A stretch of 64,000 bases of DNA, from contig JALSRK010000031.1 in assembly GCA_026984795.1 (NCBI GenBank), positions 1-64,000 of the forward strand, in the 5' to 3' direction. Each line of letters begins with the position of its first letter. Positions within the stretch are counted from its first letter, which is position 1. The position numbers and the translations under genes were made by a program. Source of the DNA: Solibacteraceae bacterium (GTDB lineage: Bacteria; Acidobacteriota; Terriglobia; Bryobacterales; Bryobacteraceae). Positions 1,931 through 60,760 of this stretch are shown piece by piece. The notes under the pieces were generated by a model. The model was not told the origin of the DNA, did no database searches, and saw nothing but the letters and a program-made list of their open reading frames with translations.

Positions 1931-3247
1931 TCAGTCGAAGCTGCCGGTCACCCCTTGGAAGCGGCGCTGAGCCTGTTTGGCGACCCAGCGGATCACCCGC
2001 GCGTCGTTGTAACAGTAGCCGAGGTTGTGGTTGAGCGTCGAGAAGCAGTGCTTCTCGCAAGACTTTTTCATCTCGCTGAGCTGCCGGACGTCGAACTTGT
2101 GGTTCTCGATCGTCCCCCAGTCATAGGTGGCCGAGTACAGGGGGAAGCACGGCGCCAGCGTGCCGTCCACCCGGATGATCAACGAGTTCTGGCCAGCCCG
2201 GCAGTTCCAGGGCTCCACCGTCCCCCGCATGAAGGCTTTCATGTCGTTCAGGCGCTTGACGGAATTCACCATCTTGTACCCGGAGCGGTTCTTCTCGATC
2301 AGCCAGTCCAGCAACTCGTCCACCTTCGGCCAGTCTTCGGGCCGGATAAAGGTGTCGTTGTCGTCGAGATGCTTGAAATGAGGCTGCTCGAGCATCGGCG
2401 ATTCGTTGATGTGATAGTCCGTGGCGATCCCATGATCGTGGGCGATCTCGGTCAGCTCTCGGATGTCGTCCAGGTTCGTCCGGCAGATGTTCATGTTGAA
2501 GAACACCGTGTAGCCGTAGCGGTACTGCTTCCTCACCAGGTACTCGAAATACGAGCGGATCGGCTTCAGGGCTTTCGGCAGGCCGGGCTTCACGTCAACG
2601 GCGTCAACCGCCAGATTGACGGTGGCCACCCCTGCATCGGCGATCCTGTCGATCACCTCCGGCCGCATCAGCCTGCCGTTCGTAGGCAAGTAGACGAAGA
2701 ATCCCTTCTTGGCGCCGTAGTAGATGACCTTGTGCACGAATTGCGGCCGCAGTAAAGGCTCGCCGCCCATCAGGGCGAAGAAGCGGCACGTGGTGGTGTG
2801 CAGCCAGTCAATCGCCCGCTTCGCCGTCTCTTCCGTCATGCCCTTGACGCGGTTGTCGAAGGCCCAACAGTAATGGCAGTCCAGATTGCATTTCCACTCG
2901 GTGAACAGATATGCAATGATCGGGTGGAATTCACCGGGGAGCACCCTGGACTTTATATAGGGAAACAGGAAACCCCGCATGGCCCGCACCACCTGGGGCG
3001 GAGTCCAGCGCCGGCGTCCCTCCCTGGCGAGCCGCTGCCTTTCGGCTATCTCCGCCTCGTCGTCCTCTCCGAGCAGTTCAGGGTGCTGGGGGAAAACCGG
3101 GTCCGGCAGTTTCTCCAGCCGCCGCGGAGCTGGAGGCGAAACCGGGCGTTCGACGGCCGGTTTCCGCAATAACTCATGAAGCTGAACATCCAAACGGAAT
3201 GTCGTCAGACCTTCCGAAGCTTGCTCGTCTCGCTCTATCGTCTCCAT
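1931..3247 (-). CDS. Radical SAM protein with SPASM-like C-terminal Cys cluster
   Basis: A 438-aa protein. The radical SAM [4Fe-4S] motif CNLDCHYC gives Cys120, Cys124 and Cys127; GGEPLL follows as the SAM-binding glycine-rich motif. The C-terminal part has further Cys residues (WNCRAG, APCFPL, KSCEKHC, GYCYN), as in SPASM/twitch domains that bind auxiliary Fe-S clusters. The start was set at ATG 3247 because GGAGGTT (3251-3257) sits at ideal spacing; the longer frame to 3337 has no such signal. Relatives modify peptides or small molecules, or serve in cofactor pathways. No peptide precursor gene could be found next to it, so the substrate is open. The 119 residues ahead of the Cys motif are a long, charged, proline-rich extension. 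Confidence 0.8.
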   Translation of the reverse strand: METIERDEQASEGLTTFRLDVQLHELLRKPAVERPVSPPAPRRLEKLPDPVFPQHPELLGEDDEAEIAERQRLAREGRRRWTPPQVVRAMRGFLFPYIKSRVLPGEFHPIIAYLFTEWKCNLDCHYCWAFDNRVKGMTEETAKRAIDWLHTTTCRFFALMGGEPLLRPQFVHKVIYYGAKKGFFVYLPTNGRLMRPEVIDRIADAGVATVNLAVDAVDVKPGLPKALKPIRSYFEYLVRKQYRYGYTVFFNMNICRTNLDDIRELTEIAHDHGIATDYHINESPMLEQPHFKHLDDNDTFIRPEDWPKVDELLDWLIEKNRSGYKMVNSVKRLNDMKAFMRGTVEPWNCRAGQNSLIIRVDGTLAPCFPLYSATYDWGTIENHKFDVRQLSEMKKSCEKHCFSTLNHNLGYCYNDARVIRWVAKQAQRRFQGVTGSFD

Positions 3248-3250
3248 TGG

Positions 3251-3257
3251 AACCTCC
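3251..3257 (-). promoter_or_regulatory. Shine-Dalgarno site fixing the radical SAM start
   Basis: GGAGGTT on the minus strand lies 3 nt upstream of ATG 3247 (ribosomal spacing 5-7 from the core). It decides the start against two upstream alternatives (3280, 3337). Confidence 0.75.
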
Positions 3258-3844
3258 AAGTCAATGTCATCTTGAATCATCGCTGTCGAGGATCCACCCT
3301 GCCAATCAGATGGGACGAAAAGGGTGGTCGGGCGCACCTCAACCGTTGAGTGCCGCGTCGGCGCCGCTGCCGGGGAATCCGGGCAACGTTCGTGTCACGC
3401 GGTTCGGCGCCGCTCCTCAGGAACCGCGGCCTGATCCCGCCGCTGGACATGTCACCGGCTGCCGTCGGCGGCCTCCGGCCGGACAATCGGGTCGCTTCAG
3501 GTTGCGAAAGGGCGTACTCCCCTGCTGGGCCCATGCGTCTGGAGCAGGCTCCGGAAACGATAGAGCTAGTCCAGCACGCCATTGTCAAACCTCGATATGA
3601 GATTCGCTCGATACGGCCGGAAGTTACCCGTCGGTCGCGACATTACCCGGCCCTTTGAGGCGGCAATAGGCCCTGCCTCGGATGATGCATTTGTCTCAAC
3701 ACCGGTGACAGGCCGCGCCGGTGCGCACGATCTGGCGCCCCGAGGCGCCCGGTGTCACGAATCATGTTGGACCTTCGGGCCGCGTCGACCCCACCAGGCG
3801 CGCCGCAAACCGGTTCCCCCCTTATGACAATTGTAAGTTGTAAC
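3258..3844. other. Divergent intergenic region with repeated TGTCAC motifs
   Basis: About 590 bp between the divergent radical SAM and receptor genes, with no credible ORF. The hexamer TGTCAC occurs at 3393-3398, 3450-3455, 3753-3758 and just beyond at 3860-3865 on +, and at 3705-3710 on -. That is five copies in under 480 bp, against roughly 0.2 expected by chance on both strands. A larger unit is repeated: CCGGTGTCACGAATC (3749-3763) and CCGGTGTTACGACTC (3869-3883), 13 of 15 identical. These could be binding sites for one regulator serving one or both flanking genes; this is inference. Confidence 0.45.
3699..3755 (+). repeat. Nested inverted repeat (hairpin) upstream of the Oar-like receptor
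   Basis: The outer arms ACACCGG (3699-3705) and CCGGTGT (3749-3755) enclose an inner perfect stem GGCGCC (3734-3739) and GGCGCC (3744-3749) with a CCGA tetraloop; the two stems share base 3749, so they may be alternatives. No T-run follows, so an intrinsic terminator is unlikely. The right arm overlaps one of the TGTCAC motifs. Confidence 0.45.
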
Positions 3845-3939
3845 CATTCACCGTTTCCCTGTCACCGTCCGGTGTTACGACTCCGAAATCATTAGTGAGT
3901 TCTCTCGGATCGCAGCCGGAAAGACGGAAACGGTGAATG
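3845..3939 (+). promoter_or_regulatory. Structured leader: 14-nt arms pair across the start codon
   Basis: CATTCACCGTTTCC at 3845-3858 is the exact reverse complement of GGAAACGGTGAATG at 3926-3939. The right arm contains both the putative ribosome-binding GGAA and the ATG (3937-3939) of the receptor. Between the arms lie a small stem CACC/GGTG (3863-3866/3871-3874) and a stem TCCGA/TCGGA (3882-3886/3905-3909), so the transcript could fold as a three-way junction that hides the start site. This resembles the layout of translational riboswitches or thermosensors, but I recognise no known class. It could instead be a split DNA operator. Confidence 0.5.
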
Positions 3940-6525
3940 ACAAGTCAGAAGCCATTACGCAGCCGGTGGTTCGGGAGCCGCGGGGCGTTGCTCCCGGCCC
4001 GTGCCGCCTCTCGGGCGCGTGGCTTCGCCGCCCTGGTTTTCGCTCTGCTCGGCGCCTTGGCAAGCCTCGTGCCAGTCTTGCCGGGGCAGGAACCGGCCGG
4101 GACCATTCACGGCCGCGTCTTCAGTGTTGCGCCCAATGGCGAGCAGTACGCGATACCCGGGGCCGATGTTGCGCTGGCGCCCAGTCCCACCGAAGCGGAT
4201 TCCGCGCCCGCGGCGGGCGCTGAGCCACGCCGTGGTTCCACCGACGCCGAGGGTCGGTTTGAGTTCACCGGGGTGCCGCCGGCTTGTTATCTGGTCACCG
4301 CCTCCTCGGCCGGACTGGCGGGCCGGGCACGTCGGGTCTGCCTGCTCGCCCCGGGCGGAGAAGTGGAGTTGGACCTGGAGATGACCTTGGCCGAGGTCCA
4401 CCAGTCGGTCGACGTCACGGCGACGGTCGAAGGGCTCGACACCATCGAATCCTCCGCCACCGCCACCGTCGAGGAATCGACCTTGCGGGATGCCCCGATG
4501 ATCAACGAGCGCTTCGAGGATACGCTCCCGCTGCTGCCCGGTGTGGTTCGCGGTCCGGACGGGCTGATCAACCTGAAAGGAGCCCGGACCACCCAGAGCG
4601 GTTCGTTGGTCAACAGCGCCAATGTCACCGACCCGGTCACCGGCTCTTCCGCCATCAATCTTCCGGTGGATGTCGTCAGCGAGGTCAAGGTGCTTTCCAA
4701 TCCCTATGACGCCGAGTACGGAAAATTCGCCGGCGCGGTCTCGGAAGTCCAGACCCAGGTTTCCCAGTTCGACCAGATCCACTTCCAGCTCCAGAACTTC
4801 ATGCCGCGCCTCCGCTACCGCGACGACTCCATCGTCGGTGTGGAGTCGGCGACCCCCCGCCTCACCTTCACCGGCCCGGTGGTTCCGGGCAAAGTCGCGC
4901 TCACCCAGTCGCTGGAATACCGCTTCGTGCGGACCGAAGTGGAGCAGGCGGGGCTGCCGGTGCTCGAACGGGATACGAAGCTCGAGAGCTTCGACTCGTT
5001 CACCCAGTTCGACTTCCAGCTCGGCGCCCGGCACACCGCCGGGCTGAGCCTCTCACTCTATCCCCAGAAGCAGGACTTCTTCGGCCTCGGCGCCTTCCGT
5101 CCGCAGGAAGCCACGCCGAATATCCACCAGCGCGGCTATCTCCTCTCGCTCCGCGATACCTACGCTTTGCAAACCGGCTCCTTGCTCGAGTCCCAGATGA
5201 ACTTCAAGACCTTCGATGCCGACGTCTTCCCGAACAGCTCGGACTTCTACCGCGTGGGCCTCGAGACGGCCCACGGCGGCTTCTTCAATAGACAGGCGCG
5301 GGACACGTTCCGCTACGAAGCCCGGGAAACCTTCCATCTGCACCCGGTGCAGGCCGCCGGCGGGCACCTGCTCAAGTTTGGATTCAGCTTCGTCCGCAAC
5401 CGCTACGACGGCCGCCAGCGGTTCGATGACGTCGATATCCTCGGACGCGCGGGCCGGCTGGTACAACGGGTTGTTTTCGGCCCGCCGGCAAACGTTGCGT
5501 CGCGCCAGAACGAGTACACCGCTTTCGCTCAGAACAAGTGGAGCGTGGCGCCCGGGCTGAGCTTGGACCTTGGCCTGCGGTTCGATCACGACTCGATCAC
5601 CGGCGAAGACAACCCGGCCCCGCGCGCCGGTTTCGCCTATGTGCTGACGAGCGACAACCGCACCGTCCTCCGCGGCGGCGCCGGCCTCTTCTACGACCGG
5701 GTGAACCTCAACGTACCGACGTTCCCCGCACTTCCCCCGCGAACCGAAATCCGCTTCGGACCGGGCGGCGAGATCACCCAGGCGGTCGCCTACCGCCACC
5801 GCTTCGGCGGCCGGCTCAGGAATCCCCGCTCCTTCTCCTGGAGCTTGCAGCTCGACCGGGAACTGGCCGAGGGCCTCTTCGTGCGGGCCGGCTACCAGCA
5901 GCGCAACACCGTCCGCAACTTCGTCCTGAACCCGGAGATCACCCCGGCAGGCTCTTATCTGACCCTGGCAAACTCCGGGCGCGACCGCTACCGCGAGTTC
6001 GAGCTGACCGCCCTCTACCGCATGGGCAAGCGCGGCCAGTTGACGGCCTCCTACGTGCGATCCTCGGCGCTTGGCGATCTGAACGACGTCAACCAGTTCC
6101 TCGGCAATGCCGCCGACGCCGTCATCCGGCCGAACGAGCGTTCGCGGCTCGCGTTCGATGCCCCGAACCGGTTCTTGTTTTGGGCCGACCTCAGCGCGCC
6201 GGCCGACATCACCGTCTCGCCGGTGCTCGATGTCCATACCGGTTTCCCATATTCCATCGTCAACGAGCAAAGAGATTTCATCGGCCCGCGGAACCGCGCC
6301 GGCCGTTTCCCGCGGTTCGCCTCATTCGACCTCCAGATCCTGAAGCGCATCAAGCTGCCTTTCGTGGGCCGCAAGTACGGCGCCCGCATCGGGGTCCGAA
6401 TCTTCAACTTCTTCAACAGCTTCAACCCCCGGGAACTCCAGAACAATCTGGCCAGCGCCCGCTTCGGCACGTTTCTCAACGCCAAGGACCGCGAGTTTCG
6501 GGGGAAGTTCATTCTCGAGTTTTAG
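3937..6525 (+). CDS. Oar-like TonB-dependent receptor with carboxypeptidase-like regulatory domain
   Basis: An 862-aa outer-membrane protein. After a long basic N-terminus and a hydrophobic signal segment (FAALVFALLGALASL) comes a carboxypeptidase-regulatory-like/CnaB fold at about residues 53-145 (GTIHGRVFS, DAEGRFEFTGVPP). A plug domain at about 165-280 follows (DTLPLLPGV, NLKGARTTQSG, SEVKVLSNPYDAEYGKFAGAV), then a beta-barrel ending in LEF. Oar-like receptors take up or display large substrates across the outer membrane; the ligand is unknown. At 862 aa it is shorter than most Oar-like proteins (about 1000-1100 aa), including the second one in this window. The start lies inside a long inverted repeat that may control translation. 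A LolA-like protein gene follows 10 bp after the stop. Confidence 0.85.
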   Translation: MTSQKPLRSRWFGSRGALLPARAASRARGFAALVFALLGALASLVPVLPGQEPAGTIHGRVFSVAPNGEQYAIPGADVALAPSPTEADSAPAAGAEPRRGSTDAEGRFEFTGVPPACYLVTASSAGLAGRARRVCLLAPGGEVELDLEMTLAEVHQSVDVTATVEGLDTIESSATATVEESTLRDAPMINERFEDTLPLLPGVVRGPDGLINLKGARTTQSGSLVNSANVTDPVTGSSAINLPVDVVSEVKVLSNPYDAEYGKFAGAVSEVQTQVSQFDQIHFQLQNFMPRLRYRDDSIVGVESATPRLTFTGPVVPGKVALTQSLEYRFVRTEVEQAGLPVLERDTKLESFDSFTQFDFQLGARHTAGLSLSLYPQKQDFFGLGAFRPQEATPNIHQRGYLLSLRDTYALQTGSLLESQMNFKTFDADVFPNSSDFYRVGLETAHGGFFNRQARDTFRYEARETFHLHPVQAAGGHLLKFGFSFVRNRYDGRQRFDDVDILGRAGRLVQRVVFGPPANVASRQNEYTAFAQNKWSVAPGLSLDLGLRFDHDSITGEDNPAPRAGFAYVLTSDNRTVLRGGAGLFYDRVNLNVPTFPALPPRTEIRFGPGGEITQAVAYRHRFGGRLRNPRSFSWSLQLDRELAEGLFVRAGYQQRNTVRNFVLNPEITPAGSYLTLANSGRDRYREFELTALYRMGKRGQLTASYVRSSALGDLNDVNQFLGNAADAVIRPNERSRLAFDAPNRFLFWADLSAPADITVSPVLDVHTGFPYSIVNEQRDFIGPRNRAGRFPRFASFDLQILKRIKLPFVGRKYGARIGVRIFNFFNSFNPRELQNNLASARFGTFLNAKDREFRGKFILEF

Positions 6526-6534
6526 GGAGGGAGG

Positions 6535-7269
6535 ATGAGACGGCGAATCGGGATGGCGCTGGTCCTCGCGGCGGCCGGGTCTCTGGCCTTCTCCGGTGAT
6601 TCGGAGCGGATGCCCACCGCCGCGGAGATCGCCGCCCGCATGGAACAGATGGATACGTGGCGCAACTCGGCCCTGAGAGCCTACACCGTCCTCCGCCACT
6701 ACGAGCTGGAGAACACCCGCTTCCACAAGCGCGCGCAGATGACCGTCGAAGTGACCTACACCTATCCCGGCAACAAGCATTTCCGGGTACTGGAAGCCTC
6801 CGGGTCCACCTGGGTCCGCCAGAACGTGCTGAAGCGCCTGCTGGAGTCGGAAGTGGAAGCTTACAGCGCCGAGTACCGGCGGCAGACCCGCATCAACCGG
6901 GCCAACTACCACCTGGAGCTTCTCGGCCGGGGCAGACACAACGGCCGGGATTGTTTCATCCTCACGATTACGCCCAAAAGGCCTGAGAAATACCTCGTCC
7001 GGGGCCGGATCTGGGTGGACGCCCAGGACTACGCCATTACCAGGATCGAAGGGACTCCGGCGAAAAACCCGTCCTTCTGGACGCACGATATCAAAGTCGT
7101 CCACGAATACCGCAAGATCGGGCCGTACTGGCTTTCCGCCTCCATCTATACGAAAACCGAAGTCCGGATTTTCGGCTCCACCGTCGTCAAGATCGACTAT
7201 TTCGATTACGAGCTGAACCCCGGGGAAAGCGCCAGAGAGGCTAAACCGGGCAGGGAGAAGGGCGGATGA
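6535..7269 (+). CDS. LolA-like outer-membrane lipoprotein-sorting protein
   Basis: A 244-aa exported protein (signal MRRRIGMALVLAAAGSLAFS). The body matches the LolA_like half-barrel family: an N-terminal helix (AAEIAARMEQMDTWRN), strands with repeated aromatic residues, and the late IWVDAQDYAITRIEGTPAK segment typical of the family's antiparallel sheet. Such proteins bind lipid or acyl chains in the periplasm; the precise role in this subgroup is not known. A strong Shine-Dalgarno (GGGAGGGAGG) directly precedes ATG 6535. Its stop overlaps the next gene's start by four bases (ATGA), which ties it to the lipid-related run downstream. Confidence 0.75.
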   Translation: MRRRIGMALVLAAAGSLAFSGDSERMPTAAEIAARMEQMDTWRNSALRAYTVLRHYELENTRFHKRAQMTVEVTYTYPGNKHFRVLEASGSTWVRQNVLKRLLESEVEAYSAEYRRQTRINRANYHLELLGRGRHNGRDCFILTITPKRPEKYLVRGRIWVDAQDYAITRIEGTPAKNPSFWTHDIKVVHEYRKIGPYWLSASIYTKTEVRIFGSTVVKIDYFDYELNPGESAREAKPGREKGG

Positions 7270-8273
7270 CGCGCACCCGGCTGATCGTCGCCGCTGGCGG
7301 CGTGGCGCTGCTCGGATTGCTGATCGGACGCCTCGGCGCCGCCTCCTTGTCGCAGCTTTCCGCGCTGGGTCCAGTGGCGCCGGCGCTGGCGGCATCGCTC
7401 GCCCTCCGCCTGGCCTGGCGGACTTGGAACCTGAGGGCCGCGCTCCGCGCCGAGAATGTACCGGCGACGGCTGGCACGGTCCTCGGAGCACGGTTGGCGT
7501 CCGAAGCGGCCGGATACCTCTCCGTGGCGGGACCGCTGGTCGCCGAACCCCTGAAGCCCCTCCTGCTCGGGCGCCCCGGCTCCGCCCGACAGACCGTCAC
7601 CGCCACCGTTGTGGACACGGCCTTCTATTGGGTGTCGTCCACCGCGCTGATCCTGGCGGGGGCGTTGGGCGGCCTCCTCCACGCGGGAGACGGACGTTCC
7701 GCGGCGGCAATGGCCCTCGTGGCCGGCGCGGTCTCGGCGGCCGCGGCGGGTCTGGTGCTGCCCCACCGGCCGTTGCTCCCGCTGCTGCGCCACCGCCTCG
7801 AAGGCCGGCTCGGGCGAGATTCGCGCTGGGCCTCGGGCCTGCTGCGGGCGGCCGAAGTGGAGCGCAGGGTTCGCTCTTTCCGCCGGCGCCACCCGGCCCG
7901 TAGCGTGGAGATCTTCGCCCGGGACCTTCTCTGCCAGGCCGCCCGGGCCGGCGAGGTGGCGGCAATCCTCTGGGCCGGCGGGGCGGGGTTTGATCCTCTG
8001 GCCGTGCTCGGGATCGAATCGGCCATCCGGATCGTCAAGACGGCGAGCTTCTTCGTGCCCGGCCGCATCGGCGCCGACGAAGCCGGGGCGGCGGGCGCTT
8101 TTCTGCTGTTCGGCTTCAATCCGGCATTGGGTCTCAGCCTCGCTCTCGGGCGCCGTTTTCAGGCGTTGGCCCGCTGTAGTGCGGGCATGATGTGGCTTTC
8201 GTATCGCCCGTCGAGTGAAAAGCGGAAAGGAAATCTCCATGCAAGCGCTGATCCTGTTACCTCCCGCCTCTGA
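7266..8273 (+). CDS. Lysylphosphatidylglycerol-synthase-type integral membrane protein (flippase-like)
   Basis: A 335-aa polytopic protein with roughly seven or eight hydrophobic segments (starting LIVAAGGVALLGLLIGRLG). It carries the hallmarks of the LPG_synthase_TM/UPF0104 family: RLASEAAGYLSVAGPLVAEPLK in the middle and FFVPGRIGADEAGAAGAF near the C-terminus (the family's P-G-x-x-G-x-x-E loop). Members move or flip lipids and lipid-linked glycans; the aminoacyl-transferase domain of MprF is absent. It starts at ATG 7266, overlapping the LolA-like gene by 4 nt. Its C-terminal 11 codons overlap the next gene. Position in a lipid head-group operon suggests lipid translocation, which is inference. 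Confidence 0.8.
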   Translation: MTRTRLIVAAGGVALLGLLIGRLGAASLSQLSALGPVAPALAASLALRLAWRTWNLRAALRAENVPATAGTVLGARLASEAAGYLSVAGPLVAEPLKPLLLGRPGSARQTVTATVVDTAFYWVSSTALILAGALGGLLHAGDGRSAAAMALVAGAVSAAAAGLVLPHRPLLPLLRHRLEGRLGRDSRWASGLLRAAEVERRVRSFRRRHPARSVEIFARDLLCQAARAGEVAAILWAGGAGFDPLAVLGIESAIRIVKTASFFVPGRIGADEAGAAGAFLLFGFNPALGLSLALGRRFQALARCSAGMMWLSYRPSSEKRKGNLHASADPVTSRL

Positions 8274-9459
8274 ACTCGGTACGGAGGCGCGGCCGTTCAG
8301 CCGATTGGCCGAGCCCGTCTGTGGCCTCGGGCTCCTGGCCCGCACTGTCGCTACGGCGGCGCGGGTTGGATGCGACCGCATTCTGATCGTCCACCCTCCG
8401 AGCGTTCCCCGCCGCACGGTCCTCGCCGCTCTCGACCTGCGGCGAACCCGAGGCGCCCGCGTCGAAACAGCGCCGGCTGCCGCATCCCTTGACCCACGCC
8501 GGCCGTCGAACTGGCGGCAAATCGCGCCCCACCTGGAGGAGAGTCTTCTGTGGCTCCCCTGGAATTTCGTCGTTGACAAGGTCCGCCTTCGGGAATGGAT
8601 ACGGCGCCCGGAGGCCAAGGCTTCCGTCCGCACCCCGGGAACGGCGCGCCGGGCGGAGCTGCTTCGCAACGGTTTGCCGGAAGCCGCGCCGGCCGGCGCG
8701 CCTGGGAGGAGCGTCTTGACGAAAGCCGACAGGCGCATCGTCGAAAACGACCTCGTGCGGCACTCCGGCAAGGAGTGGGACGGCGTGTTCTCGCGGTTCA
8801 ACCGCCGCCTCTGCCGTCCGGCCGTCCGCTGGCTCTCGAAGACTCCGGTGACGCCGAACGCGGTCACTTTCGCGGGCCTGCCGGCGGCTGTCCTCGCCGG
8901 GTACTGGTTCGCCCAGGGCTCCTGGGCCGCCGACGTGCTGGGGGCGCTGTTTTACTTCCTGACGGTGCTGCTCGATGAGATCGACGGCATGCTCGCCCGG
9001 GTGACGTACCGCGAGTCGGCGTTCGGCTGCTGGCTGGAAGCGTTTGTGGATTACGCCACCTACATCCCTCTCTTCGGGGGGATGGCGATCGGTCTTTACC
9101 GGCAATACGGAGCCGTTTGGCTCACCCTTGCCGGCCTGCTGGCCGTGGGAGTGGTGATGACCGCCGCCGTCGCCGTCTATCACCGCCGTCTCGCCTGCCG
9201 CCTCGTCCGCGCCGATCTCTACGTCCCGGAGTACTATGCCCGCCTGGACGGCGACTCGGGCAGCCTGATCTCCCGTTTCGTGCGGCGGACTCATTTCATT
9301 TTGAAGAAAGGCGCCTTTTGTCATATCGTTCTCGGCTTTTCGGCCCTGGGCTTGTTGCCGGTCTTCTTTGCCATGGCGGCCGTAGGCAGCAACATCACTT
9401 GGGTGCTCGGGTTAGTGACCAGCCGTCTGCTCTCGAGACCCGCGCCCGGAGCGGCATGA
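8239..9459 (+). CDS. CDP-alcohol phosphatidyltransferase with degenerate nucleotidyltransferase-like N-domain
   Basis: A 406-aa protein. The C-terminal membrane domain (about 175-400) carries the CDP-alcohol phosphotransferase signature: Asp246, Asp249-Gly250, Ala253-Arg254, Gly263, then Glu267 and Asp271. The position that is normally the third Asp is Glu267. The N-terminal ~160 residues have the layout of a nucleotidyltransferase domain (MQALILL, later DRILIVHPP) but lack the G-x-G-x-R nucleotide-binding loop, so they are probably non-catalytic. The overall design resembles bifunctional inositol-phosphate cytidylyltransferase/DIPP synthase. The next gene encodes an intact nucleotidyltransferase that could supply the CDP-alcohol. 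The start is ATG 8239, with AAAGGA seven bases upstream; an earlier GTG (8215) is less likely. It overlaps the preceding gene by 35 nt. Confidence 0.8.
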   Translation: MQALILLPPASELGTEARPFSRLAEPVCGLGLLARTVATAARVGCDRILIVHPPSVPRRTVLAALDLRRTRGARVETAPAAASLDPRRPSNWRQIAPHLEESLLWLPWNFVVDKVRLREWIRRPEAKASVRTPGTARRAELLRNGLPEAAPAGAPGRSVLTKADRRIVENDLVRHSGKEWDGVFSRFNRRLCRPAVRWLSKTPVTPNAVTFAGLPAAVLAGYWFAQGSWAADVLGALFYFLTVLLDEIDGMLARVTYRESAFGCWLEAFVDYATYIPLFGGMAIGLYRQYGAVWLTLAGLLAVGVVMTAAVAVYHRRLACRLVRADLYVPEYYARLDGDSGSLISRFVRRTHFILKKGAFCHIVLGFSALGLLPVFFAMAAVGSNITWVLGLVTSRLLSRPAPGAA

Positions 9460-9491
9460 GAGAGCAGATGGAACAGGAAAGGAGCTTGACC

Positions 9492-10283
9492 ATGCGTGCA
9501 GTGATACTCGCCGCCGGCCGTGGAACCCGGATGGCGGACGTGAGCCGGGGGCGCCCTAAGTGCCTTCTCGAGTTCGGGAAACGGACAATCCTCGATTACC
9601 AGATCCAGAACCTCCTGGGAGCCGGCATCGACGAGATCGCCATCGTCGTGGGCTATGAAAAGGAGCAGATCGTCGAGCACGTCGCTCACGAGCATCTGGA
9701 CAGCGCCGCCCGGATCCAGTTCCTCCACAATCGGCTCTACCGAACGACCAACAACATCTATTCTCTGGGCCGCGCCCGGAATTGGGCTTCCGGTCGCCGC
9801 TTCTTGTGCCTCAACGCAGACGTCCTCTTCCATCCCTGGATTCTGCGCCCGCTGCTCCGCGCGTCCCACGCCGTCACGTTGGCGGTGGACCCGGAGTTCC
9901 GGGAAGAGACGGCCAAGGTCATTATCCGGGAAGGCCGCATAGTGGCCCTCGGCAAGAAGATCACCCGCGCGGAAGCCAGCGGCACTTTCGCCAACATGGC
10001 GGCGTTTTCTGCTCGGGGGTCGACCCTCCTGTTCCGCACGATCGAGGCGATGGTCCGCGCCGGGATGGTGAACTGCTTTTTCAACGACGCGATCTTGCGC
10101 CTGGCCGCCAAGGGTACAGAGGTGGGTTACACGGAAACCGGAGCTCTTCCCTGGGCGGAAGTGGACGACGCGAGAGATGTCGCCTACGCCGAACGCGCTG
10201 TGTATCCCGCCCTCGTAGGCGCTCACAAGGGAAGCCGGGAAGCGCCGGATGGGTATCACGCAGCGTCGGAGGTTGCCTCCTAG
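9492..10283 (+). CDS. LicC/IPCT-like sugar- or alcohol-phosphate nucleotidyltransferase
   Basis: A 263-aa Rossmann-like NTP transferase. The N-terminus is MRAVILAAGRGTRM with the G-x-G-x-R loop, followed by the conserved KCLLEF lysine. The NNIYSL motif is characteristic of LicC-type phosphocholine cytidylyltransferases and inositol-1-phosphate cytidylyltransferases; NADVLF holds the metal-binding Asp. The product is probably CDP-choline-, CDP-inositol- or a similar CDP-activated alcohol. It lies 32 bp after a CDP-alcohol phosphotransferase whose own nucleotidyltransferase domain looks dead, so the two probably act in sequence. ATG 9492 with AAAGGAG upstream is preferred; ATG 9456 overlaps the previous stop and would add 12 residues. 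Confidence 0.8.
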   Translation: MRAVILAAGRGTRMADVSRGRPKCLLEFGKRTILDYQIQNLLGAGIDEIAIVVGYEKEQIVEHVAHEHLDSAARIQFLHNRLYRTTNNIYSLGRARNWASGRRFLCLNADVLFHPWILRPLLRASHAVTLAVDPEFREETAKVIIREGRIVALGKKITRAEASGTFANMAAFSARGSTLLFRTIEAMVRAGMVNCFFNDAILRLAAKGTEVGYTETGALPWAEVDDARDVAYAERAVYPALVGAHKGSREAPDGYHAASEVAS

Positions 10284-10286
10284 CCG

Positions 10287-11237
10287 GTGCTCCGCCAAAT
10301 GCGTCTGCCTCCGAAAGAGAGCGTCGTCCGCACCACTGCTGTGGCCGGCCTGGCAGTGGCGACCGCCGCTCTTCTCTCCCCGGCCGACTCCAAACCGGCG
10401 CCCCTTGACGTCCTTGTTTGCGGCGGTTTTGCCGCGGAGACGCCCCCGGCCGCCTCGATCAGGCTCATGAGCTGGAACATCGAGCGCGGCGCCCGGCTCC
10501 GGGCGGTCGTCTCGGCGATCAGCCGTGAGAAACCCGAAGTTTGTGTTTTCCAGGAAGTCGATTGCAATGACGCCCGGACCGGACACCGCGACATCGCCGC
10601 TCTGCTCGCCCGGCGTTTCGGCCTGAATTACGTCTTCGCGCGGGAGTTCCAGGAACTGAGCCAGGGCACCCGTGAATCCCCTGCCTACCATGGCCAGGCC
10701 ACTCTGACGGCCCTGCCGATCCGGTCGCCACGGCTGCTGCGCTTCTCCAGGCAGTCCTCCCGCTGGCTTCCCCGCTGGTACCTGCCCAACTGGCCCTTCT
10801 TCCAGCGCCGGCTCGGGGGCCGGATCGCCCTGGTCACCGAAATCCACCTCGGAAACACCAGCGTCGCCATCTACAACGTGCACCTGGAGAGCCAGGGATC
10901 GCGGGAGCTCCGCCTCGCCCAGATCCGGGAGGTAGTGGCCGACGCGCTCCGGTATGGCCCGAAGCGCCCAGTGATCATTGCCGGCGACCTCAACACGAAG
11001 TCGTTCCCCTCGCCCGTCATCTCATTCTTGCTCGAGAGCGGGTTTCGCGACGCGCTTCCCGGGAGCCCCCGGCCCACGCACCGCTCCGGGCGAAAACTCG
11101 ACTGGATCTTCGTCCGAGGCCCCCTGGAGTGCACCGGGGGAAGAGTCTGCGCCGGCATCGACGCCTCGGACCACTACCCGCTCGCGGTCGAGATCGCGCC
11201 GAGCCCTTCGCCGGGCGGACTAGCGGCCGGCCGGTGA
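10287..11237 (+). CDS. Endonuclease/exonuclease/phosphatase (EEP) family protein, exported or membrane-anchored
   Basis: A 316-aa protein. After an Ala-rich hydrophobic segment (VAGLAVATAALL) the EEP fold runs to the end, with all hallmark motifs: SWNIERG (Asn, Glu), QEVD (Glu), YNVHLE (His), AGDLNTK (Asp, Asn), LDWIF, and SDHYPL (His). The family covers nucleases, sphingomyelinase-like and phosphoinositide phosphatases. In this operon a phosphodiesterase or phosphatase acting on lipid head groups is plausible, but that is inference from position. The frame opens with GTG 10287, 3 nt after the preceding stop; ATG 10299 is an alternative. It ends 23 bp from the convergent TPR gene. Confidence 0.75.
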   Translation: MLRQMRLPPKESVVRTTAVAGLAVATAALLSPADSKPAPLDVLVCGGFAAETPPAASIRLMSWNIERGARLRAVVSAISREKPEVCVFQEVDCNDARTGHRDIAALLARRFGLNYVFAREFQELSQGTRESPAYHGQATLTALPIRSPRLLRFSRQSSRWLPRWYLPNWPFFQRRLGGRIALVTEIHLGNTSVAIYNVHLESQGSRELRLAQIREVVADALRYGPKRPVIIAGDLNTKSFPSPVISFLLESGFRDALPGSPRPTHRSGRKLDWIFVRGPLECTGGRVCAGIDASDHYPLAVEIAPSPSPGGLAAGR

Positions 11238-11260
11238 GAAGAGCGGGCGTCCCTGCAGGT

Positions 11261-12733
11261 TCAGCCTCCAGGGCGGCGGCGCCCCAAGCGTTCCAGATCA
11301 CGTTCGATGCTGGAGAGCAGGTTTCGGTCCACACCCGCCCGCGCCCTCTGGAGCGCCAGGCGCAGATACCGCTCCGCCTGGGGCTGGTCCCCGGCACGGG
11401 CGTACGCCGCGCCCAACGTATAGCAATAGAGCGCCCCGGGCGCCTTCTCGTTCTCTACCGCAGCGGTCAGCTGGCGGATGCCCTCGCCATACCGCCCCTG
11501 GATGACCAGAAGGCGGCCGAGATGGAAATGAGCCAGCGCGAAGCCCGGCCGGTTTTCCACTGCCAGCCGGTAATGAGCTTCGGCCTCTTTCACGTCGCCG
11601 CGGCTTTCGAGGAGGACCCCCAGGTTATGATGGGCGCCGGCATAGAAGGGATTGATCTCGATCGCTTTTCGAAATGCGGCCTCCGCCTCGTCGAACCGTT
11701 CCTCCTCAAACAACAGCACGCCGTGGTTGTAGTGGCAGTCGGCCATATCCGGATTCAGCTTCATCGCCAACCGATAGTGCTCCTCGGCTTTCTCGCGCTC
11801 CCCGAGACGCCCATAGAGCGAGATCAGGTTGACGTGAGCCTGCGCCAGGCCGGGATCGATCTCGAGCGCTCTTAGATGGAGCCGGAGCGCCTGCGTCAGT
11901 TTGCCTTCCCGTTCTAAGGCGATGGCCAACTCGATCAGCTTCACCGCTCCCTGGTAGTGGCGCCGGATCTCAGCCATCAGCTCATCGTTCGCCGGTGGGA
12001 TCTTCTGCTGGTACCTCCGGGAAAGCCGGAAGTGAGGTCTCGCCTCCTCGAGCCGCCCCAACCGCCGGTAGGCAACGGCAAGCCCGTAATGAGCGGCGCC
12101 ATATTCCGGGTACAGTGAGCAGGCCCTCTCAAAGGCTCTGGCGGCGCCGGCAACATCTCCTTTCGCCGAGTGGACGCGGCCGAGGCCGAACCAAGCCGCC
12201 GCCGACCCGGCGTCGGCGTCAACGGCGCGCCGATAGTAGGAGGCGGCGTCCTCGGGGCGCCCGAGCTGCATCAGCACGTCACCGGCCTTCAGCAGGCACG
12301 GCCGGTAATCGGGCCGGATTTGCAATGCGGCGTCCAGGCTGGCCAGCGCTTCATCGTACTTGCCCTGGGAAGCTCGGACCTGGCCGAGGTAGTAGAGCCA
12401 TTTGAACTCCCGTGGGGAGAGGGCCGCCGCCCGCCGGTAGGCGGCTTCGGCAGCGGCGTACTGTTGATGCGCATGAAGCAGCATGCCCAGTTCCCCGGCC
12501 GCCGCCGCGCTCGCTGGCCGGGCTTCCACCGCGCTGTAGGCCTTCTCGACCGCCCCACGGACGGCCGGCAATAGTCCCTCCGTGGGCGGCCGCGCAATCT
12601 CCGGCGGCGGTTCGCCATGGCCCTGGGGATGGGAACCGCAGGCGCTGAGAGCCAGGACGAGGGCAACCAGCGCTGGCCAGGCCGGCCCGCAGCTTTGCGC
12701 GCGAAGCTGGTCACTCGGCAGGCTTTGGGTCAT
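11261..12733 (-). CDS. TPR-repeat lipoprotein
   Basis: A 490-aa protein. The N-terminus has a lipoprotein signal ([12 protein letters not shown], lipobox LSAC), followed by about ten TPR units ([68 protein letters not shown]). One break is seen near the middle ([24 protein letters not shown]), which separates two TPR blocks. It probably serves as a periplasmic scaffold tethered to a membrane. The start is ATG 12733, with AGGAAGG at good spacing; the longer frame to 12808 lacks a signal. It is convergent with the EEP gene and lies downstream of the large receptor on the same strand. Confidence 0.8.
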
Positions 12734-12831
12734 TCGCGGCCTTCCTAGTTGCTTGGCGCCGAGGCGCGTCAGACAACGTCCGCAGGAATCGGAATGTATC
12801 GGGAACAAGGCCCGGCGCAGTGAGAAAGGGG

Positions 12832-12912: not shown

Positions 12913-15900
12913 TCAGAAGAACAACCGCAAGCCGAAGCGGAAGCTTCGCTCATCCTGCTTGGCGCTCGTGATCGTGGCGAAATCGTCTTCTGAAACATTG
13001 GCATTCGGGTTGTTGAAATGGGGCGTGTTGCTCACGTTGAAGGACTCGGCCCGGAACTGCAGGCGGAACCGCTCGGTAATCGGGAAATCACGGAACACGC
13101 CCAGATCGAGATTCACCACCCCCGGACCCCGTAAGATGTTCCGGCCGGTGTTTCCAAACCGCGTCTCCGTGACCGGGGCGAAGGCCGTGGGATCGAAATA
13201 CGGGTGTCCCAACCCCTTGCCGCCGAACTTCCGCACCCGTTTCTTGACCTGATCGGCCGTCTGGCCGTTACCCGGTGCGTTCAGCGAGGCGTCGTCGGCC
13301 TCCACGGTAAACGGCGTGCCGCTGTAGGCGCTGAACAGAGCGTTGATCTGCCAGTCCCGCACCACGTAAGACAGGGCATTCCGTCCGCCGGCGAAGCGCT
13401 TGCCCGGTCCGAAGGGCAGCTCGTAGATCGCGGCGAGCTGGAGAACATGGGTCCGGTCGAAGCCGGCCAGCCCTCGATTGCGCTTCCGCTCGGAGGGATA
13501 GTTGAAGAACAGCGTCGTGCTGCCGTCGTCGGCCCCGTTCTCGTCGTTCTCGTTGATGGTTTGTGAAAAGGTGTAGGCGCCCTTCACGAAGAGGCCATTC
13601 GTGAATCGCCGGTTGACCGTGGCTTGCAGGGAATGGTACTGGCCGGTCAGGAAACCGTCCAGCAGGTTCGTCTCCACCGTCCGGCCGAAGCGCTGGGCGA
13701 ACGGCCGCCCCGCGGTTCCGCCGCCCGGAGGCGCCGCGTTCAGATCAACGTCAGCGAGCTGCCGAATCGTCCGCGTCCCGACGTAGCCGACCGAGGCAAC
13801 GAAATCCAACGGCAGTTCCCGGTCGATGATGAAATTCCACGACTGCACGTAACCCCGGTGGAATCTCCCCTGAGGGAGGAAGTTCGTCTGGGCCGTACCG
13901 GGGATGTCCACGACGCCGCTGCTGATATCGGGTCCGGTGAATTCCGGAATGCCCTCCTCAATGGTGTTGAAGGGCTGGAAAGAGTTCCGGCCGAGGAAAT
14001 CCTGGGCGATGACCACCGGAAACGGAGAGCGGATGAGGCGGCCGATGGCATCAGCGTCATACGTGATCCCATAACCGCTCCGAATCACCGTTTTCGACCC
14101 GAGCCGATAGGCGAACCCCACCCGGGGCGCGAACAGCCGCTTGCTCACGGTGGTTCCGGCGCCGTCCGGAACGCCCCCGCGGCGCCCGATGAGCACCTTG
14201 TTGGTCTCCGGATCATAGCGCTCGATTCCCCCGGCGGCGCGCGTGAGCAACGGGTAGTATTCGTAGCGCAGCCCCAACGTCACCGTCAACTTCGGGCTCA
14301 ACTGCCAGCGGTCCCGCACGTACCAACCCAACTGCCATTCCCTGGTGCTCATGGGCGAGAAGAACTGGAGGCTCTTACCCACTGACTGGGGCAGTCCCAG
14401 CAGGAAGCTGGCGTAGGCATTGAACCGGTTCGGCGAGGAGCCGCCGCTGAGGCCGGTCACGCCGCCGCGGAAGTTGAACCGGCCTCGAGGACCGGCCCCG
14501 CCCGCTTCAGGCTGCCAGTGGTTGATGTGGAGCCGCAGCAAGTCGAATCCAAACCGGATGTTGTGGGCGCCGCGCGTCCAGCTGGCGTTGACCGATCCAG
14601 TGTAGCTTTCGTCGTTGCGGAACAGTGGACTCCAATTGTTCGGGTTCCCCAGCCTCTCGAAGCCCGAGATCGCAAAGATCGGCTTGCCGCTCTGGCGGAT
14701 ATCCGGCCCGTTCGTACCGGGAATGCCAAGCACGTCCAAGCCGAAGTTTTCTCCGAAGTCGGGACCTTTCACGTTCTGGCCCATCCTGCCGTAACCCACG
14801 GTGCCGTCAATCAAGAAGTTCGGGGTGATGATCCAAGTGCTGCCGACGGCGGCGGCGTTCACCAGCGTGTCGCTCAGGCCGATCCCCCCGTTGCAGAGGC
14901 CCCGCCCGCCCGCTTCCCCGAGCACCGGGGCGCACTCGACCTGGGCGTCAACCAGCGTGTATTTGCCGAACATCGTGTAGTTCGACGATGGATTCCAGTT
15001 CACCTTTACATCGAAGTTGTCGCGATTGAGCGACGACGTACCGGAGTTGGCGAAGTTCGAGCTGGTTCCCGGCCGATTCGGCAGCGGCACCAGCGCCTGC
15101 ATCTTCCGGGTGATCGCGCTTTGCCGGTTGCTCGGGATCTTGTTGCCCGGAAAGGGTTGCCGGCCCGTCCCGTCCTCATTCCCAGTGAGTGGATCGAAGA
15201 TGGTCGTGCCGAAACTGCTGAAATCCCCTTCCCGTTGCGCCGCCGTAGCCACCGTCGCCAGCCGCGAAAAGCCCTGCCGTTGCCGCGTCCCCTCCCAACT
15301 GCCGAAGAAGAAGAGCTTGTTCTTCGCGATGGGCCCTCCAAAGGTGCCGCCGTCGATGTTGAAGTTACTGTGCGGCTTGCCGACGTCGGTGAAGAAGAAG
15401 TTCTTTGCCTTCAACTTGTTCCCCGTAAACAGGGCGAATGCTGAACCGTGGTACTCGTTCGTTCCGGACTTTGTAATTACCGTGATGGCCGCTCCCGTCG
15501 TCAGACCTTGCTCAGCGTCGAAGTTGTTCGTAGATATGTTCACCGTCTCGATCGACTCCACCGGCGGAACGTACAGCGTATGGTGAACCAAGTACGGAAA
15601 GATGTTCACCGCGCCGTCCACCCGTGTGCGGTTGTTGTTGCGCACAGTCCCGTTGACATGCGTGGTGAGCGCTCTGTCCGGCGTATCCGTGATGGCGTTT
15701 TGAAAGCGCGCCGGGGTGGCGCCCGGGACCAGGTTGATCAGCGTCTGGAAGTTCCGGTAGTTCGACAGCGGCAAGTCCACGATCGGCTTGGATGTCAACT
15801 CGGCATGCACGTCCGACTGATCGGTCTGCAGCACGGTGGCCGCCGCCTCCACGTCGATCGTCTCCGTTACCTCGCCGAGTTCCAGAGAGACGGGCACGCG

Positions 15901-16233
15901 TGTCACGGTGTTTACCGTTACGAACACGTCGGTTTCGCGGTACGTGCGAAACCCCGGAGCACTCGCGGTCAGAGTGTAAGTGCCCGGCAGTACGTTCACG
16001 AAAATGTACCGTCCCGTGTCGTCCGAGCCGGTCTCGCGTACTTGTCCCGTGCGCTGGGCGGTAATCGACACGCTTGCCCCCGGCACGACCGCTCCGGCGG
16101 GATCCTGGACAGATCCCACGATCGTTCCGTAAAGAACCTGCGCCCTTAGTCCAGGCCCTTGCGTTGTCGCCACAAGAAAGGCCAACGCCAGGCACAGGTT
16201 GGAAATAATAGAGGAAAGTGTAAACCCCCTCAT
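12913..16233 (-). CDS. Oar-like TonB-dependent receptor with carboxypeptidase-like regulatory domain
   Basis: A 1106-aa outer-membrane protein, the full-length size for the family. A signal peptide ([19 protein letters not shown]) is followed by a carboxypeptidase-regulatory-like domain at about 30-120 ([36 protein letters not shown]). The plug has [11 protein letters not shown] and [35 protein letters not shown]. The long barrel includes the [14 protein letters not shown] block and [10 protein letters not shown], and ends FRFGLRLFF. These receptors are strongly expanded in Acidobacteriota; substrates are usually unknown. The start at 16233 is chosen for the signal peptide and GGGAGGG upstream. 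A degradative GH28-like gene lies upstream on the same strand, so plant or microbial polysaccharide uptake is possible but unproven. Confidence 0.88.
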
Positions 16234-16551
16234 TGCTCTAACCCTCCCGCTAAATCCTCGAATATTCTCCCCCCCGCTTCCGATAGTCGTGAGGCTGGCT
16301 TTGTTTGTCAAGTAAACGTTGTCGGCGGCGCGGCAATGTGAACCGTGTAAATGATCACTGGATACATAAACAAAGAGCCGGAAAGCTCACAGCGCGATGA
16401 GTTTAGTTTCCTTACACGTAGCCTGAGGCGCCGAGACCGGGTCGGCCTTTACCCAGCGGAGCCTTGGCGGTGGACAGGGCGCCGGCCAGGTTAGGGTCAC
16501 AGGCGGGCCAGATGCAATGGCTTTCGGATCACCTTGGCCGCCGGGAGCGAA
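16234..16551. other. Intergenic region upstream of the large receptor, with a possible promoter
   Basis: A 318-bp gap relatively rich in A+T in its left half. On the minus strand a perfect -35 hexamer TTGACA (complement of 16306-16311) is followed 17 bp later by GACTAT, only 3 of 6 matches to a -10 box, so the call is weak. The octamer palindrome GAATATTC lies at about 16259-16266. No ORF is supported here. Confidence 0.35.
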
Positions 16552-60552: not shown

Positions 60553-60760
60553 CCCGCCTGCGTCGGGCCTCCTGATCCTTCACCGCACCGCCGCGTCCGA
60601 ATCCTTCTCAGACGAAGCCAGCCTCCGCGTACACTCTTGCGCGGGTGTCAGTGCAATTCGGATGCCACCGTCCCGACCCCTGGGTCTGTCATGAAATTAT
60701 CTCATGTTTTCAACCAGATCGGAGAAACCTTCCCCCGCCCGATCCACTTCTTGGGAACCA

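Follow-up and report, generated by a model that had tools for sequence, protein, structure and literature searches.

What does an acidobacterium make with a compact run of genes that encode a nucleotidyltransferase, a CDP-alcohol phosphotransferase, and a set of membrane and envelope proteins? The run in question lies in the 64 kb at the start of contig C31 (JALSRK010000031.1; here, the window) of a Solibacteraceae bacterium, the assembly of which amounts to 5.2 Mb and is 96.8% complete. An initial annotation, made from the sequence alone, had read five consecutive plus-strand genes at 6535 to 11237 as a candidate operon for the activation, transfer, translocation, and turnover of an unusual lipid head group. 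We found the five genes, with their overlaps and short gaps, where they had been placed, but they belong to a larger unit: six plus-strand genes fill positions 3937 to 11237 as one operon, and both the first gene (3937 to 6525) and an unusual motif in the transferase had been missed. On balance, we favor a Kennedy-type route in which the products of these genes synthesize a membrane lipid bearing a phospho- or phosphono-head group and export it. The head-group role originally proposed, including a probable translocation step, is supported by the co-location of the genes and by fusions between two of them, and the acceptor is presumed to be a lipid.

Gene content and conservation of the operon

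The operon encodes, in order, a TonB-dependent-receptor-like outer-membrane protein with an N-terminal carboxypeptidase-regulatory domain (3937 to 6525), a LolA-superfamily protein (6535 to 7269), an LPG_synthase_TM integral membrane protein (LPG-TM; 7266 to 8273), a CDP-alcohol phosphotransferase (8239 to 9459), a nucleotidyltransferase (9492 to 10283), and an endonuclease/exonuclease/phosphatase (EEP)-superfamily phosphoesterase (10287 to 11237). Successive genes are separated by a gap of 9 bp, an overlap of 4 bases (an ATGA junction between the LolA-like and LPG-TM genes), an overlap of 35 bases (between the LPG-TM and transferase genes), and gaps of 32 and 3 bases. For the transferase, the ATG at 8239, which has a plausible ribosome site ahead of it, is a more likely start than the GTG at 8215 with which the mechanical open reading frame (ORF) begins.

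Relatives were collected from named genomes by using as the query an alignment of transferases with the motif of the window enzyme (E type; see below), and the analysis retained the best 80 of 438; an alignment was required, as a single transferase sequence used as the query of genome contigs retrieved no relatives. Most of these relatives are metagenome-assembled genomes (MAGs), gene calls outside the window were made in this analysis, and one locus (L056) carries frameshifts. Matches to transferases with the same motif at E values below 1e-26 were recovered in ten other genomes among 396 across the phylum. A search of 24 genomes from the same family as the window yielded no close homolog, the other matches there being ordinary relatives with ~30% identity over 120 residues.

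In two loci from genera other than that of the window, L072 (JAFAMD010000052.1; Acidobacteriaceae MAG) and L073 (JAFAKX010000140.1; Silvibacterium MAG), all six genes lie side by side on one strand, nearly in the order of the window (receptor, LolA-like, nucleotidyltransferase, LPG-TM, transferase, EEP). Protein identities between the window and L072/L073 are 48/46% for the receptor, 45/41% for the LolA-like protein, 33/32% for the nucleotidyltransferase, 32/34% for the transferase, 43/44% for the EEP enzyme, and 24% for LPG-TM (L072). As the same six genes stand together on one strand at ~24 to 48% identity, their arrangement is not due to chance. A smaller set of four (nucleotidyltransferase, transferase, LPG-TM, and EEP) occurs together in L050 and L051 and, along with another secreted-looking protein, in L059; in L055, no EEP gene was found within the available contig stretch. 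The initial annotation had suggested a comparison of the occurrence of these families across Acidobacteriota, and in distant members of the phylum we indeed found the genes co-located rather than scattered.

Some of these loci contain further genes. In L050 (2998 to 8113) and L051 (3904 to 9184), two extra proteins lie between the transferase and EEP genes, one unclassified (~800 residues) without a Pfam match and the other (912 to 954 residues) of a type-I phosphodiesterase/sulfatase fold, which also precedes the phosphonate genes of L056. A family of ~310 to 360 residues, without a Pfam match in the two members checked, adjoins E-type transferases in L054 (5597 to 6658), L055 (8050 to 9036), L059 (8699 to 9643), and L052 (4850 to 5926).

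A CDP-alcohol phosphotransferase with glutamate at a metal-binding position

The transferase was recovered by the Pfam model CDP-OH_P_transf (PF01066; 32.8 bits versus a cutoff of 22). Its predicted structure (predicted local distance difference test [pLDDT], 85) has the family fold, matching AF2299 (PDB code 4o6m; VIA Z 25.2, 3.5 Å, 307 residues) and AfIPCT-DIPPS (VIA Z 23.0) from end to end, so that the match extends to the N-terminal domain, which is cytidylyltransferase-like. In the window protein, this NTP-transferase-like domain appears degenerate, as the GxGxR...PK signature of active enzymes cannot be read in it. The membrane domain contains the motif DEIDGMLAR-x8-GCWLEAFVD, in which seven of the eight residues of the signature D1xxD2GxxAR...GxxxD3xxxD4 are present and D3 is replaced by Glu. 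These eight residues have been described as absolutely conserved (PMC4634129), and D3 has a direct part in metal binding: in CHPT1, it forms the bridge between two metals (PMC10182977), and in MjPSS, it touches both ions (PMC8633023). Because of this replacement, the protein is, by its sequence, a divergent variant and not a canonical CDP-alcohol phosphotransferase.

The Glu form is represented by 13 distinct sequences, all from Acidobacteriota (the window, L050 [= L071], L051, L052 [= L074], L053 to L056, L057 [= L086], L058, L059, L072, and L073), while all other motif-bearing relatives among the best 80 of 438, which come from many phyla, have Asp at D3; this distribution is to be read with the caveat that the search patterns were derived from E-type sequences themselves. 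The remaining signature residues are invariant throughout the E-type set, and a single origin of the set is neither rejected nor strongly supported (P value of the approximately unbiased test [p-AU], 0.43).

A paralog encoded elsewhere in the same genome (L065; G000:C7, ~59231 to 60751) unites a nucleotidyltransferase of the IPCT type and a canonical (Asp) CDP-alcohol transferase in one chain. This bifunctional protein resembles IPCT-DIPPS and comes from an acidobacterium that is presumably not a hyperthermophile.

Association of the transferase with an LPG-synthase-type membrane protein

LPG-TM scores 46 bits against PF03706 (cutoff, 33.4) and 48.1 bits against the HpnL hopanoid equivalog (NCBIfam TIGR03476), which is below the cutoff of 195.65 for that model. 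In L072, L073, L058, and L086, it is joined to the transferase in one ORF of ~770 to 890 codons. The pairing gains meaning from the acceptors of related enzymes: the CDP-alcohol transferases with six transmembrane (TM) helices that have been characterized to date use soluble acceptors, and those that accept lipids carry three or four additional helices (PMC4634129). We infer that LPG-TM may provide the lipid-handling part for the transferase or flip its product.

Two classes of activating enzyme and the nature of the head group

The window nucleotidyltransferase was recovered by the Pfam model NTP_transf_3 (62 bits versus a cutoff of 27). A profile (A2) of its class, which comprises the enzymes of the window, L054, L055, L056, and L059, scored 99.4 bits with LicC (PDB code 1jyk), 80.5 bits with PntC (PDB code 6pd1), and 56.6 to 60.7 bits with IPCT, and the catalytic residues R13, K23, D110, and D225 are invariant among its relatives. 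On these scores, the invariant residues, and its phylogenetic position, the protein is a LicC/PntC-class (COG1213-like) enzyme, presumably activating its substrate with CTP, and is not IPCT-like; of its first description as LicC/IPCT-like, only the former half stands. The enzymes of L050, L051, L052, L058, L072, and L073 form another class that matches IPCT best (137 bits with 2xme versus 54 bits with LicC). The activating enzyme of the operon therefore differs between loci, being of the inositol-phosphate type in L072 and L073 and of the LicC/PntC type in the window. As the operons of L072 and L073 share the receptor, LolA-like, and EEP genes with that of the window and differ from it in nucleotidyltransferase class and gene order, a synthesis cassette may have been exchanged within a retained shell for transport and turnover. 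A transferase clade of the window, L072, and L073 is weakly rejected (p-AU, 0.025), with the grouping having been chosen after inspection of the tree.

The class of the nucleotidyltransferase is mirrored by the residue after D1 in the transferase (D1+1), which is Gly alongside the inositol class and any other residue (Glu in the window) alongside the LicC/PntC class in 38 of the 39 loci on the tree. Only three or four independent changes underlie this link, so that a sign test cannot reach significance, and D1+1 would be a strong pattern rather than a proven rule as a marker of nucleotidyltransferase class.

Several lines of evidence narrow the original list of candidate products (phosphocholine, inositol, or novel polyol type). 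No choline kinase of the LicA type (PF01633, E ≤ 0.001) was found in the window genome, although a very diverged kinase could escape such a search, and this result disfavors phosphocholine by the usual route. Inositol is probably not the head group either, because the nucleotidyltransferase is LicC/PntC-like and the transferase is without the Gly that accompanies IPCT. A myo-inositol-phosphate synthase is encoded on another contig (C50), not beside the operon, and could be served by the fused IPCT-type enzyme on C7; the synthase was dropped as a marker of the head group, being present in 26 of 31 relatives. Phosphoethanolamine- or phosphoglycerate-class substrates fit best, since no dedicated kinase would be needed in the operon. 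A precedent is CpgD, a COG1213 nucleotidyltransferase of Caulobacter that produces CDP-glycerate for a lipid (PMC12275187).

In phylogenetic trees, the window nucleotidyltransferase clusters with its homologs from L054 and L056 (support, 98/90) and the window transferase clusters with that of L054 (90/91). Both L054 and L056 contain phosphoenolpyruvate (PEP)-mutase-like and phosphonopyruvate-decarboxylase-like genes, and L054 contains an aldehyde dehydrogenase that scores 507 bits with a phosphonoacetaldehyde dehydrogenase model, under its cutoff. Each has an additional nucleotidyltransferase fused to a PEP-mutase-like domain; the fused enzyme could handle a phosphonate, with the window-type one serving a different substrate. 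In L054, the fusion protein (10883 to 12535, minus strand) scores 292 bits versus a PEP mutase cutoff of 319.55 and has EDNLFPKRCS in place of EDKx5NS. A more distant locus from a Nitrospirae MAG (L075, 1500 to 12500) encodes, in a row, phosphonopyruvate decarboxylase-like proteins, a 2-aminoethylphosphonate aminotransferase (just above the cutoff), a PntC-like nucleotidyltransferase, an Asp-type CDP-alcohol transferase, and LPG-TM, and is a good candidate for an aminophosphonolipid pathway.

Putative export and turnover genes

The TonB-receptor-like protein, predicted to be an outer-membrane barrel, is above the cutoff for three Pfam models (PF13620, 36.9 bits; PF25183, 69.8 bits; PF00593, 41.9 bits). 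The LolA-like protein, which begins with a hydrophobic, signal-peptide-like stretch and is presumed to be a periplasmic carrier, falls just below the cutoff for LolA_like (PF17131; 28.4 versus 30 bits); its predicted structure (pLDDT, 78) has a LolA-type fold, matching PDB code 3bk5 (VIA Z 11.2, 4.3 Å, 179 residues) and Porphyromonas gingivalis LolA3 (PDB code 9tp6; VIA Z 10.6). The family assignment first given to this protein is thereby borne out by the predicted structure, as are those of LPG-TM, the transferase, and the EEP enzyme by Pfam scores. The receptor and LolA-like genes are kept together in three genomes (the window, L072, and L073). A constant pairing outside the operon was considered and rejected, as a receptor stands beside only 1 of 19 LolA-like homologs within ~1.5 kb per side, and longer stretches around seven of these homologs have no common neighbor; the pairing thus looks operon-specific. 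Because the two genes accompany each other in all three genomes and LolA-like homologs elsewhere mostly stand alone, their position suggests that they may form an export arm.

The EEP enzyme matches Exo_endo_phos (PF03372) with 65 bits versus a cutoff of 24.5, and the motifs SWNIE, FQEV, AGDLN, and SDHYPL can be read in its sequence. The solved-structure search recovered no close relative.

A proposed pathway and its alternatives

In the pathway that we favor, the nucleotidyltransferase would activate a small phosphorylated alcohol with CTP, and the CDP-alcohol phosphotransferase would attach the head group to the hydroxyl of a lipid, perhaps of the diacylglycerol or ceramide type, at the inner membrane. 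LPG-TM, in a complex with the transferase, would present the lipid acceptor or flip the product; the LolA-like and TonB-receptor-like proteins would then carry the product to the outer membrane and place it there, and the EEP enzyme may remove or recycle a phosphate or phosphodiester. This reading is based on the contiguity of the six genes in two genera, the four-gene set of L050, L051, and L059, and the LPG-TM/transferase fusions; on the AF2299/IPCT-DIPPS architecture of the transferase, a LicC/PntC-class enzyme with its catalytic residues, and the LolA fold; and on Bacteroidetes clusters of the same logic with LPG-synthase-like and carboxypeptidase-regulatory-domain genes (PMC9246714), as well as the CpgD precedent (PMC12275187). 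Several points weigh against it. LPG-TM has no detectable homolog of known structure in the solved-structure search, and Glu at D3 might weaken metal binding, given that changing D3 to Ala or Ser lowers activity in relatives (PMC10182977, PMC8633023). Moreover, structurally characterized six-TM CDP-alcohol transferases act on soluble acceptors, and AF2299 and AfDIPPS are not lipid processing (PMC4634129). A broader proposal, which we advance only tentatively, is that a clade of Glu-type transferases, seen to date in Acidobacteriota only, acts together with LPG-TM and an exchangeable nucleotidyltransferase to assemble lipids of the outer membrane in which inositol has given way to an undescribed head group of the phospho- or phosphono-type, with dedicated LolA-like/TonB-receptor-like export.

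The product could be a phosphonolipid, with the nucleotidyltransferase activating 2-aminoethylphosphonate or a relative, imported or made elsewhere, for attachment to a lipid by the transferase. The clustering of both window enzymes with those of loci that carry phosphonate-like genes and the 2-aminoethylphosphonate aminotransferase beside a similar cassette in L075 speak for this. We nevertheless consider it rather unlikely, as no PEP mutase (TIGR02320, E ≤ 0.01) was found in the 96.8% complete window genome, the second, PEP-mutase-fused nucleotidyltransferase of L054 and L056 leaves the window type free to serve another substrate, and the PEP-mutase-like proteins there are under the family cutoff and without the EDKx5NS motif used as specific (PMC6697681). 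It is also unlikely, and a little more so, that the operon yields, in place of a lipid, a soluble phosphodiester of the compatible-solute type or a phospho-decorated surface glycan: the LPG-TM fusion and the co-operonic LolA-like and outer-membrane genes indicate membrane traffic, and Pfam searches recovered no LicD-type transferase or glycosyltransferase within the operon, even though the nearest solved structures are those of the non-lipid enzymes AF2299 and AfDIPPS, six-TM transferases are linked to soluble acceptors (PMC4634129), and LicC itself works in glycan decoration (PMC6697681).

That the window has an inositol-lipid operon like those of L072 and L073 with a diverged nucleotidyltransferase seems improbable. 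Its orthologs have an IPCT-type enzyme, and the genome does encode a myo-inositol-phosphate synthase; however, the window enzyme is much closer to LicC (99 bits) than to IPCT (57 to 61 bits), D1+1 is Glu instead of the Gly found with IPCT types, the synthase is common in the family, and the genome already has, at another site, an IPCT-type enzyme fused to a transferase (L065 on C7). Least probable of all is that the transferases with Glu at D3 have lost catalysis and act as scaffolds or regulators. Both metals are bound by D3 in relatives, where its replacement costs most of the activity (PMC10182977, PMC8633023), but the substitute is also a carboxylate, the other signature residues do not vary within the E-type set, and the operon context is retained across the several families in which the set occurs. 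Dead enzymes usually show more losses than one such change.

Relation to known systems

The closest parallel is an alternative inositol-lipid cluster of Bacteroides vulgatus and Prevotella, itself proposed and unconfirmed (PMC9246714), in which a nucleotidyltransferase and a CDP-alcohol transferase supply and transfer a CDP-head-group donor to a lipid, with LPG-synthase-like and carboxypeptidase-regulatory-domain genes in the neighborhood. Unlike it, the window operon has no adjacent inositol synthase or HAD hydrolase, its nucleotidyltransferase is LicC/PntC type and not inositol type, EEP and LolA-like genes are added, and D3 is Glu. AF2299 and AfIPCT-DIPPS of Archaeoglobus fulgidus are likewise six-TM CDP-alcohol transferases preceded by a domain that resembles a cytidylyltransferase; in the window, this domain is degenerate, a separate gene encodes a nucleotidyltransferase with catalytic residues kept, D3 is Glu, LPG-TM is associated, and a role with lipids is proposed, on which the archaeal enzymes do not act. 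The LicC/PntC pathways of phosphocholine and 2-aminoethylphosphonate tailoring (PMC6697681) share the nucleotidyltransferase class, but the window operon has a CDP-alcohol transferase in place of LicD, and no choline kinase or PEP mutase was detected in the genome. The Caulobacter pathway to ceramide diphosphoglycerate (PMC12275187, PMC11324152) resembles it in that a COG1213-type nucleotidyltransferase (CpgD) activates a phospho-compound that becomes part of a lipid, and in that genes dedicated to transport lie nearby; it has a ceramide kinase and Lpt-like genes, and the window operon has LPG-TM, LolA-like, and TonB-receptor-like genes. New in the window operon and its relatives are an activating enzyme of the LicC/PntC class, a transferase of the Glu type, the LPG-TM fusion, the LolA-like and EEP members, and the occurrence of one operon with either of two activating enzymes. 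The initial annotation knew of no acidobacterial pathway with this exact set, and we found no paper on the six-gene set in the open-access literature, although the general logic had already been proposed for Bacteroidetes.

Genes flanking the operon

The operon is flanked by oppositely directed genes for a radical SAM protein (1931 to 3337, minus strand) and a TPR protein (11261 to 12808, minus strand), and its GC content is not distinct from that of its surroundings. The radical SAM/SPASM-like gene, divergent from the operon, has orthologs with 57 to 72% identity that are patchy among Acidobacteriota; it was rejected as an operon member, as its orthologs occur in 30 of 396 genomes (E ≤ 1e-60) and adjoin an E-type transferase only in G048 (L053). 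A second large Oar-like gene of the TonB-receptor type lies outside the operon at 12913 to 16311 (minus strand).

Implications

Because the signature pattern serves to find CDP-alcohol transferases (e.g., by PHI-BLAST in PMC9246714), the Glu-type set would be missed by such searches. Its pairing with LPG-TM suggests a testable explanation of how a bacterial enzyme with only six TM helices may use a lipid acceptor, for which eukaryotic relatives add three or four helices (PMC4634129), and the match of D1+1 to nucleotidyltransferase type provides a simple, testable sequence rule for inositol versus non-inositol head groups. Should the product of the window operon prove to be a new lipid of the outer membrane, an abundant soil phylum would gain a candidate biomarker.

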